From: Acidobacteriota bacterium
Lineage (GTDB): Bacteria; Acidobacteriota; Thermoanaerobaculia; Multivoradales; Multivoraceae
Assembly: GCA_029263415.1 (NCBI GenBank)
Contig: JAJCXN010000055.1
Location: forward strand, 62,001 to 126,000
Direction: 5' to 3'
DNA length: 64,000 nt
Part shown: piece by piece, positions 60,622 to 64,000 of the stretch
Layout of the letters: every line of letters begins with the position of its first letter
Numbering within the stretch: position 1 is the first letter of the stretch
Notes under the pieces: generated by a model
Told to the model about the DNA's origin: nothing
What the model saw: only the letters and a program-made list of their open reading frames with translations
Databases searched by the model: none
Position numbers and translations under genes: made by a program

Positions 60622-63600
60622 CTAACGCCATTCGACCGGGATCTGCACCTTGCGATCGTCCTTGTCCTTCCATAGCACATAGCCTTCGCGACGGCCAAAG
60701 AGATACAGGTCGCGCAGCAAAGTGACGTCTTGGCGGCAGTAGTCTTCGATCAGGTCTAGGCGTCCTTCCCGGTACCACTCGAGGCTCTGCAGGCCGTCGG
60801 CGGACTTGGATGATCCCAGGGTAGCCTCGCCCAGGCGCGCAAGACCGATATTTCGGCCGACCGTTTCCTTGATGGTCTCGAACAGGTCGAGCGTCGGCAG
60901 GCTGCGGCGAAAGTCTTCACCGTTGTAGCCCGACATGACGGGGTAGTCGAAACGGATGATGTTGAATCCGATGACCAGATCGGCGGAGCGCAGTTCGGCA
61001 ACGAGACCGTCTACTTCGTCTTCCAGGTAGACGTTGAAAGTGTTCTCTTCGAGGTTGCAAGTGACCGCGAGCGCGACACCCAGACGATGGAGCATGTGCC
61101 AGCCGCCGACCTCTTTGGCCGAGCGTTTGGTTTCAATATCGAACAGCACGGTCTTGTTGATTGTGCGGGGTATCGGACAGCGAGGAAAGTTTTGTGTCGG
61201 GGAGGTTGAGCGATCGCGCGGTCTCAGAGATTGGGTTTGGGCCTTCTGAGTGGAGGGCAGCGGCGGCAGCGGAGGGAGATCCCCGGTCCTCATAGACCTT
61301 TGTTCGGCGACGCTGCCCGGCTCACCGAGGTCGAAGAGATCTCGAGTCGGCCCGCCGATTGCGGGTCCTTCTGGGTGCCCAAAGTGATCGCTGAAACGGT
61401 TTGCGGTGTTGCGATCCAATCCCCTCTGATGGCGTTTGAACTGGGCCGGATCGACCCGTTGCTCTAGATCCGGGGTGGGAGCGACGATTTCACCTTCAAG
61501 GGGCTGCTCAAGCGCTAAGAGCAGACGCATGTGGCGAAGCGCCCCCCCCTTGTCAAGCGGCCGGTTGCCGTTGCCGCATTTGGGTGATTGAACGCAGCTG
61601 GGGCAGCCGCTCTCGCACGGGCATCTCTCCAGGAGCTCGATCACCTTGGCGAGCAGCTCGGGAAGTCGTTCGAAGCCGCTCTCTGCGATGCCTACGCCGC
61701 CGGCGTGCCCGTCATAGATGAACACAGCTCCACAACCGACTTGCGGGTGAAAAGGGATCGAGATACCGCCGATGTCGCTGCGATCGCACAGGGCCAGGGC
61801 TGGGAAGAGCGAGATGGCGGCGTGCTCAGCTGCATGCAGACCGCCCATGAAATCTTCTTTGTGTTCGAGCAGCGTCTCTTCGATGGTGCGCGGAGCGGCC
61901 CACCACAGAGCCACCGTCTCGAACTCCACTGGGTCCAAGTCGAGTGCTTCTTGCCCCAAGCGTTCCTGGCCAGCGATGCGCTTGCGCTCGAAGCCGGCAA
62001 CAAACTCAGTGACCCTGACCCGACCGAGCCATGCCTCGAGAGGGCCGTCCTTGCGGTGATTGAGGATTTCCAAGATCTCGGTCGACTTCTCGGTGAGAGG
62101 TTGGGTGAAGTAGTCGACCCGCATTGGTTGTGCGATTGCCATCTTCTTTTGCTCGTCGAGCTCGGTGATGCCGAATTGCCGGCCGGCGTGCAGATAAATA
62201 GCGCCGGGGTGGCATTCGCGAAGCGCCCGAATACCATCGACCGTGCCGATCGTGCGGCCGCTCGAGGTGGAGTAGATCGAGTAGTTGGCTCCTCCACCGC
62301 GGAGGCTGACGTCGCGGTGGGGTCGTTGTCCGCGGCAATAGATCTCGCTGCCGTCTTCAGAACGGGTCAACTCGAAGTTACGGATGAGATCGTCAATTAC
62401 CGGCTGGTGGCGCTCGACATACTCTTGGTCCCGGTCACGTGACAACGGCATTTCGGCGGCGGCGCATAGGAGGTGTTGACGTCCAATCACGCGGTTCTTA
62501 GGAGAGACGATCAGTGGTTCGCACGGGCGTTGCAGGAACTCATCCGGATTTTGGAGCAAGTATTGGTCGAGCGCATCGGGTAGGGCGCAGAGCGCGGTCA
62601 CCGACTCTCGTCCCTCTCGGCCCACTCGTCCGGAACGTTGCCAGGTGGCCATCATGCTGCCCGGGAAACCCACCAGAATGCAGGCATCAAGGCCTCCTAC
62701 GTCGATTCCCATCTCCAAAGCAGAAGTGGAGATGACGGCGTCGAGCTTGCCGTCGAACAGATCTCGTTCGATCTGCCGGCGCTCGCTCGCTAGGAAGCCG
62801 GCTCGGTAGTTGGCCACGCGTTTGGCCAGCTCGGGTTCTCGTCGTTTCAACCAGTTGTGCAAGAGCTCGGTCATGCGCCGCGCCTTGGTGAAGACGATCG
62901 TCTTCAGGCCGTTGTTGACGCACTCGGTCAACAGCTCCAGGGCGGTGGTGTAGGGACTCGAGCTGGGCTGGAACAGCAGGAAGTGCCGGCCCTCGCGGGG
63001 CGCTCCAGACTCCTCGATCAGAGTGAAGGGACGCGCGGCTAGCGCTCCGGCAAACTCGGCTGCGTTGCTGGCGGTAGCGGACGACGCGATGATCTTGGGG
63101 TTGCCGCCGTGCCTGCGGCAGACACGTAGCAATCGTTGCAGTACGTGGTAGAAGTGGCAGCCGAAAATGCCGCGGTAGGTATGGAGTTCGTCGAGCACGA
63201 TCCACTTGAGGCTGCCTAGGAATTCGGCCCAGTGAGCGGCGTTCGACAAGATGCCATGGTGCAGCATGTCGGGGTTCGAGATCAACACTCGCGGTGGGTT
63301 GGCTCGAATCTGCTGCCGGTCTTTGCGCGAAGTGTCACCGTCGTAGATGGCGCAACCGGCCACATCGTCGGGGAGCTGGGCAGCGTGGGCCAGGCTGCGA
63401 AACTTCTGTAGCTGGTCTTGGCCGAGTGCCTTCAGTGGAAAGAGGAAGAGCGCCCGCCCGGGGCCGCGATTGTGGGCCTCTTCGAGCACTGGCAGCTGGA
63501 ACACGATCGACTTGCCGGAGGCCGTGGGGGTGGTGACGAGCACATCTTCGTCGCGTCGGGCAGCGTCGACTGCGGTGACTTGATGGCTCCAAAGGCGCCC

Positions 63601-63792
63601 GACACCGTTCATTACCATCGCAGCTTCGAGCGCTGCGGGCAGTGGGGTCTCGAGCGTGGCGAAGTGCGAGGGTTGCCCCGGAAGGAAGGCGCGATGGGTT
63701 AACTCGTCGGCGAGCTGCGGGTGTTGAGTCAATCCGTCGGTGAAGGGTTGCAGGCCCTGAGCAGGGACCGGTTGGCTTGGGGGTGAGGACAT
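60622..63792 (-). CDS. MrfA-type DExH helicase fused to an MrfB-type DEDD exonuclease
   Basis: A 1056-residue protein from the ATG at 63792 (AGG 4 bases upstream; a frame 31 residues longer is open). Helicase: Walker A TTPTASGKS at 87-95, DELH at 201-204, SSATAS, then domain 2 with STSALEMGIDVGG and QRSGRVGREG. A DUF1998-type region follows, with four Cys in CPCESGCPSCVQSPKCGNG near residue 760. After a Pro-rich linker comes a DEDD exonuclease (about 881-1030): DIE (Asp885, Glu887), NIIRFD (Asp949) and YCRQD (Tyr1018, Asp1022). MrfA and MrfB, separate in Bacillus subtilis, repair mitomycin adducts. Confidence 0.88.
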   Translation of the reverse strand: MSSPPSQPVPAQGLQPFTDGLTQHPQLADELTHRAFLPGQPSHFATLETPLPAALEAAMVMNGVGRLWSHQVTAVDAARRDEDVLVTTPTASGKSIVFQLPVLEEAHNRGPGRALFLFPLKALGQDQLQKFRSLAHAAQLPDDVAGCAIYDGDTSRKDRQQIRANPPRVLISNPDMLHHGILSNAAHWAEFLGSLKWIVLDELHTYRGIFGCHFYHVLQRLLRVCRRHGGNPKIIASSATASNAAEFAGALAARPFTLIEESGAPREGRHFLLFQPSSSPYTTALELLTECVNNGLKTIVFTKARRMTELLHNWLKRREPELAKRVANYRAGFLASERRQIERDLFDGKLDAVISTSALEMGIDVGGLDACILVGFPGSMMATWQRSGRVGREGRESVTALCALPDALDQYLLQNPDEFLQRPCEPLIVSPKNRVIGRQHLLCAAAEMPLSRDRDQEYVERHQPVIDDLIRNFELTRSEDGSEIYCRGQRPHRDVSLRGGGANYSIYSTSSGRTIGTVDGIRALRECHPGAIYLHAGRQFGITELDEQKKMAIAQPMRVDYFTQPLTEKSTEILEILNHRKDGPLEAWLGRVRVTEFVAGFERKRIAGQERLGQEALDLDPVEFETVALWWAAPRTIEETLLEHKEDFMGGLHAAEHAAISLFPALALCDRSDIGGISIPFHPQVGCGAVFIYDGHAGGVGIAESGFERLPELLAKVIELLERCPCESGCPSCVQSPKCGNGNRPLDKGGALRHMRLLLALEQPLEGEIVAPTPDLEQRVDPAQFKRHQRGLDRNTANRFSDHFGHPEGPAIGGPTRDLFDLGEPGSVAEQRSMRTGDLPPLPPLPSTQKAQTQSLRPRDRSTSPTQNFPRCPIPRTINKTVLFDIETKRSAKEVGGWHMLHRLGVALAVTCNLEENTFNVYLEDEVDGLVAELRSADLVIGFNIIRFDYPVMSGYNGEDFRRSLPTLDLFETIKETVGRNIGLARLGEATLGSSKSADGLQSLEWYREGRLDLIEDYCRQDVTLLRDLYLFGRREGYVLWKDKDDRKVQIPVEWR

Positions 63793-64000
63793 TCGACCTG
63801 CGATGTTAGTGCTTGTCTGAGCAGAACGCTGAGAAGTCCTTCTGGAGCCTGTGATGTCGGAGCCGAAGCTGTTGGCCGCCAACATGATTGGACAACCGTC
63901 AAATAGCCTTCGGCGGGAAACGTCGTGCCGTGCGGAAGTTCTATGGGTTCCGATGCGTAGGGGCCGCTAGAGTAAGAGCACAACCTGAAAACGGAGTAAA
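63793..64000. other. Intergenic end of the window
   Basis: No gene is complete here. The last bases read AACGGAGTAAA, a possible ribosome-binding site, so a plus-strand gene may start just beyond the window and diverge from the helicase-exonuclease gene. Confidence 0.3.

Follow-up and report, generated by a model that had tools for sequence, protein, structure and literature searches.

A DEDDy exonuclease joined in one chain to an MrfA-family helicase, a probable stand-in for MrfB

In Bacillus subtilis, the helicase MrfA and the exonuclease MrfB (YprA-YprB) constitute the mitomycin repair pair. MrfA, as well as SftH, moves 3'-5' on single-stranded DNA and MrfB digests in the 3'-5' direction (PMC11194089, PMC12458937). 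The active site of MrfB is of the DEDDh type and includes His258, the chain ends in a TPR tail, and for the joint action of both proteins only a docking model is given (PMC11194089). Complementation by mrfAB is reported to require alleles that are closely related. A broad distribution of the pathway outside Firmicutes has already been reported (PMC12458937). The DinG protein of Staphylococcus aureus, which carries a helicase and a 3'-5' exonuclease in one chain and plays a role in mitomycin resistance, was likened by its authors to a natural MrfA-MrfB fusion, although its helicase is a different one, its polarity is 5'-3' and its DEDDh exonuclease is N-terminal (PMC12345164). The YprA protein of TALON bears a C-terminal RNase H-fold domain, reported to be inactivated, and is encoded within a TOTE-like defence operon (PMC12458937). 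The part of a 2025 preprint that is available mentions in passing YprA helicases "fused to MrfB/YprB homologs", a wording that probably covers the architecture described below.

The window, the whole stretch of 64,000 nucleotides analysed here, comes from a genome of 6.9 Mb in 60 contigs, the nearest named relatives of which are Acidobacteriota of the class Thermoanaerobaculia. The last gene of the window, on the minus strand, is a single open reading frame without internal stops. Its product resembles the B. subtilis MrfA-MrfB pair in the combination of a whole-length MrfA helicase with a predicted DEDD 3'-5' exonuclease, but differs from the pair in being one polypeptide, with a nuclease that is DEDDy and not DEDDh, lacks the TPR tail and falls outside the MrfB clade. 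Position 63792, given as the gene end in the preliminary description, corresponds to residue 32, an in-frame ATG downstream of the start, from which an alternative product of 1,056 aa would be made. The features are as follows.

60622..63885, minus strand: fusion ORF of 1,087 aa, ATG at 63885 and stop at 60622, with one-frame homologues known
63058..63588, minus strand: DEAD/DEAH RecA1 domain, aa 100-276 (Pfam PF00270, 1.7e-28)
63508-63531, minus strand: TPTASGKS motif in RecA1
63181-63192, minus strand: DELH motif in RecA1
62611..62937, minus strand: Helicase_C RecA2 domain, aa 317-425 (PF00271, 2.6e-16)
62617-62640, minus strand: QRSGRVGR motif in RecA2
62296..62505, minus strand: winged-helix domain, aa 461-530 (PF22982 WHD_HRQ1, 3.8e-11)
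61591..61830, minus strand: MZB / DUF1998 Zn-binding domain, aa 686-765 (PF09369, 4.5e-21)
61576..61623, minus strand: four-Cys motif region CPCESGCPSCVQSPKC, aa 755-770, Cys invariant across 57 fusions
61198..61413, minus strand: disordered Pro-rich linker, aa 825-896 (model residues 794-865), pLDDT below 50
60622..61197, minus strand: predicted DEDDy 3'-5' exonuclease domain, aa 897-1087 (PF13482, 9.1e-7; fold Z 14-14.8)
61132..61140, minus strand: Exo I motif DIE, aa 916-918 (D916, E918), D and E invariant in 58 sequences
60943..60969, minus strand: Exo II motif GFNIIRFDY, aa 973-981 (N975, D980), N and D invariant in 58 sequences
60727..60741, minus strand: Exo III motif YCRQD, aa 1049-1053 (Y1049, D1053), Tyr invariant and Asp above 90% in 58 sequences

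The Pfam domains are thus aligned in the order DEAD, Helicase_C, WHD_HRQ1, MZB and RNase_H_2. The best PDB match of the helicase was YprA/MrfA (6znp, E 2.5e-126), extending over the full length including the WH, OB and connector regions, and the predicted structure superposed on 6znp with Z 38.4 (722 of 748 residues), a score far higher than those for Lhr (Z 26.9) and other SF2 helicases. The SF2 Walker A/B and arginine-finger motifs are present together with the MZB/DUF1998 four-Cys Zn motif, and the match to NCBIfam TIGR03817 was strong, yet under the curated cut-off. By every test applied, the helicase half is a member of the MrfA/YprA family, for which 3'-5' helicase activity is predicted. 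In a comparison with six unfused MrfAs, a small sample, the fused helicases formed one side of a branch with support of 100. Behind the helicase follows the linker of about 70 aa, variable without constraint in both length and sequence among the relatives (alignment of 20 rows including the window).

All five DEDDy positions are present in the nuclease half, with D-x-E, N-x3-F-D and Y-x3-D intact, and the residues are invariant or nearly so in 58 aligned sequences from at least eight phyla; a 3'-5' nuclease activity is predicted from these motifs. The RNase_H_2 family (PF13482) matched aa 915-1061 with 24.8 bits against a cut-off of 22, and with 29.4 bits in a second search, which is weak compared with 136 bits for an MrfB, and it matched 57 of the 58 family members. 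As a distant member of the family, the domain escaped an initial PF13482 search of the genome to which the window belongs, and a phmmer search of the PDB with the single exonuclease sequence yielded chance matches only. The nuclease domain was modelled with a pLDDT of 95.9. Among the matches listed for the predicted structure, the nearest folds were exonuclease domains of family-B DNA polymerases (Z 14-14.8), the nearest solved fold and one with a DEDDy-type active site. The polymerase domain is absent here and identity is about 14-21%, in agreement with a shared fold, not with membership. MrfB was absent among the 50 entries listed in this comparison, an absence of no weight by itself. The PHROGs family phrog_403 was rejected as a specific marker since true MrfBs match it as well.

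The preliminary description had proposed a DUF1998-type helicase with a four-Cys motif, a Pro-rich linker, and a C-terminal DEDD exonuclease with intact DIE, NxxxFD and YxxxD motifs (here DIE at 916-918, NIIRFD within 973-981 and YCRQD at 1049-1053) that lacks the helical-repeat tail of MrfB; all of this was borne out. The chain stops 34 aa past the last catalytic Asp, while the tails of Acidobacteriota MrfBs measured mostly 126-186 aa, with one of 11 aa (30 loci examined). Its identification of the nuclease as MrfB did not hold. A closer relation of the exonuclease to an unrelated RNase H-like family, which it had named as evidence against itself, is largely what was found, the Tyr motif being the DEDDy signature. 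Tyr is present in place of the MrfB His in all 58 aligned members (YCxxD), while HNxxD is carried by all 30 Acidobacteriota MrfBs examined.

The separation of the two nucleases was also apparent from profile comparison. A profile built from Bacillota MrfB-type proteins, several of which adjoin an MrfA gene, retrieved B. subtilis MrfB (8UN9) from the PDB at 3.2e-41, whereas the fused-exonuclease profile did not find 8UN9 at E <= 10 and gave weak matches to NrnC. The MrfB profile scored 3.8-17.4 bits on all 81 members of the fused family (9.7 bits on the window's exonuclease) against 216-249 bits on MrfBs. Cross-profile scores were near zero in both directions, and the exonuclease profile matched none of the 30 Acidobacteriota MrfBs at 1e-3. 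In a quick exonuclease tree, the fused family and MrfB formed separate clades with support of 100, the inner branches between them being 2.7 and 4.0 changes per column. An hhalign comparison of the two families gave a probability of 86% at 22% identity. On these comparisons, the fused nuclease and MrfB, both matching PF13482, are related at the superfamily level only, and the fused nuclease is very probably not MrfB.

After a scan of named genomes, 80 loci were detected, 69 of which (67 full-length and 2 partial, from independent assemblies) carry helicase and exonuclease in one frame, mainly in Acidobacteriota and Desulfobacterota. The taxa are Acidobacteriota, Thermodesulfobacteriota, Nitrospinota, Latescibacterota and Handelsmanbacteria, Zixibacteria, Planctomycetota (Kuenenia) and CSSED10-310; further loci come from entries that bear the labels Myxococcota and Pseudomonadota. 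Cultivated carriers include Desulfoprunum benzoelyticum (L060) and Desulfobotulus alkaliphilus (L082). The same fusion was found in 42 of 297 sampled Acidobacteriota genomes, and neither chance nor assembly error accounts for such numbers. As judged by sequence, the fusion is ancient and common to several phyla. Relatives of the same order as the window also carry the nuclease in the helicase frame. Within the window's own family, the sampled genomes of one genus (g2; G001, G004-G023) gave no strong match to the fusion, and 12 of them matched neither nuclease profile; this genus may use another route for the repair of such damage. Three further candidates (G256, G389 and G396, with frames of 702, 809 and 461 aa) were rejected as new fusions for want of a helicase match, and their long frames appear to result from GC-rich sequence being read through ahead of a normal start.

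Canonical MrfB, defined in Acidobacteriota by E < 1e-20, was detected in 88 of the 297 genomes. The overlap with the 42 fusion genomes was 0, the expected number being 12.4 (Fisher p 1.8e-7), and the same held at the family level (17 fusion and 30 MrfB families, overlap 0; p 3.5e-4). Of 198 Desulfobacterota genomes, 57 had the nuclease and 21 had canonical MrfB, and the overlap was likewise 0 (p 6.5e-4); in this sample, the fusion was judged by the length of the frame, about 940-1,200 aa in most cases, with the backing of the named Desulfobacterota loci. These p-values are too small because the genomes share descent; the pattern, however, recurs in two phyla, both of which use the nuclease partners in a mutually exclusive manner. 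In the 30 Acidobacteriota MrfB loci, mrfB mostly overlaps or abuts mrfA in a different frame. The preliminary description took the fusion as a sign that the pathway works outside Firmicutes; the proposal itself is plausible, but it is these ordinary Acidobacteriota mrfA-mrfB pairs, not the fusion, that show the presence of the pair there. As separate observations on these loci, an MrfB gene without the usual tail overlaps the helicase gene from the upstream side in L197 (G186), reversing the usual order, and two genomes of the Acidobacteriota family f71, G255 and G350, each gave the canonical MrfB core as two matches in one frame, about 50-60 bases apart, which suggests a small insertion.

The nuclease also exists on its own. 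Standalone members of about 200 aa were found in Verrucomicrobiota, Nitrospirota, one Limnochordaceae genome and several Acidobacteriota, and most of the genomes concerned have no MrfA match. Alongside the standalone nuclease, the families f31 and f42 have a separate MrfA and canonical mrfB, and five genomes (G158, G170, G192, G305 and G378) contain both the standalone nuclease and canonical mrfB; in G378 and G305, mrfA adjoins mrfB and the DEDDy gene is located on a different contig. Present in genomes that also have mrfB or in genomes without an MrfA match, these members indicate that the nuclease family has its own history.

Based on these findings, we propose, with a probability of roughly 0.7, that an MrfA helicase and a DEDDy exonuclease act in one chain and that the nuclease does the job of MrfB as a non-orthologous replacement. 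The wider evolutionary account, in which one ancient fusion event, its product found today in at least eight phyla, swapped MrfB for an exonuclease of separate lineage, DEDDy and of the proofreading type, and yielded a one-chain repair machine excluding mrfB, we consider somewhat better than an even guess; for a role of the fusion in adduct repair as such, the chances are about even or a shade above. In the proposed mechanism, the RecA1-RecA2-WH-OB/connector-MZB helicase, which carries the predicted DEDDy 3'-5' exonuclease on its flexible linker of about 70 aa, would, like MrfA and SftH, move 3'-5' along the damaged strand. Since the motor would leave the 3' end of the strand it tracks behind it, a tethered 3'-5' nuclease could digest the adduct-bearing strand, and mitomycin-type adducts might be unwound and digested by a single molecule. 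The full-length model gave a pTM of 0.87, which would fit a nuclease packed on the helicase, the estimates being about 0.86-0.88 for packing at a PAE of 3-5 A and about 0.75 for a floating nuclease.

As far as the available papers show, what is new is that the fused nuclease belongs to a DEDDy family of its own, some members of which stand alone, and that it excludes canonical mrfB. On all three points, the exonuclease family, the standalone members and the exclusion of mrfB, these findings differ from the account in the available part of the 2025 preprint, where the fused nuclease is called an MrfB/YprB homolog. A likely annotation habit would be corrected, since the "fused MrfB" is here a different nuclease, and the question of MrfA-MrfB as a working unit becomes testable on one stable polypeptide. 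If the replacement of MrfB is true, adduct repair by MrfA helicases would depend on some 3'-5' nuclease and not on MrfB as such; the standalone family, for its part, would represent an uncharacterised DNA-repair nuclease in its own right.

Instead of adducts, the fusion could act on RNA, R-loops or stalled replication intermediates, as a housekeeping unwinding and trimming enzyme. The layout of WRN, an SF2 3'-5' helicase and a DEDDy-type exonuclease in one chain, offers a precedent for this combination, but WRN is eukaryotic, its helicase is of the RecQ type and its exonuclease is N-terminal, leaving a resemblance in layout only. RNases occur within the DEDDy and RNase D-like superfamily, in line with the weak NrnC matches, and the gene neighbourhood is neither conserved nor provided with a common damage-response partner. 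Such a role is nevertheless unlikely, for MrfA, the best relative of the helicase, is itself a helicase of DNA repair, the fold of the nuclease is nearest to DNA proofreading domains, and the distribution is complementary to that of mrfB.

A true MrfA-MrfB fusion, in which MrfB lost the TPR tail, exchanged the general-base His for Tyr and diverged past recognition after fusing, would agree with the shared helicase partner, the complementary distribution, the common superfamily (PF13482 in 57 of 58; hhalign 86%) and the wording of the preprint in its available part. It is quite improbable in view of the standalone members in genomes that also have mrfB or in genomes without an MrfA match, and the tree, the reciprocal profiles and the PDB control all set the two nucleases apart.

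Anti-phage defence is very improbable. On this reading, the fusion would be a relative of the YprA proteins of TALON, ARMADA or Druantia, which also have C-terminal nuclease domains. Defence systems often contain YprA helicases fused to nucleases (PMC12458937), and PADLOC helicase models match the motor. No defence genes were found beside the window gene, no conserved operon or shared damage-response partner was found across the fusion neighbourhoods, and the presence of the fusion tracks families; unlike the inactivated RNase H domain of TALON YprA, the fused nuclease has intact active-site residues, and TOTE-like neighbours are absent. Genes for PH-domain proteins, for an Fpg-like glycosylase and an SDR, and for glycosyltransferases lie around it, and only the closest relatives, mainly L032, have these neighbours in common with it. 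The divergent upstream neighbours, just past the window end (L220:8020-10441), are two PH-domain proteins of the bacterial type and a DNA glycosylase of the Fpg-like H2TH kind; L032 alone keeps this arrangement in full. A frameshift or assembly artefact joining two genes, the other objection foreseen in the preliminary description, is refuted by the identical one-frame fusion at the 69 independent loci and in the 42 genomes.

Some members of the family depart from the general pattern of the nuclease half. In L018:1486-4317 (G025), the exonuclease length is kept and nearly all catalytic residues are gone, DIE being replaced by VRV and NxxxFD and the Tyr being lost, which suggests a structural role of this domain. 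In L002 and L032 (near relative G002), the last catalytic Asp is replaced by Ala (YCRRAV), the other active-site residues being intact. With catalytic residues lost in these few fusions, the nuclease activity may be dispensable in some. One Desulfobacterota genome (G512) carries the exonuclease twice, once within a frame of 1,013 aa and once as a standalone protein of 188 aa.
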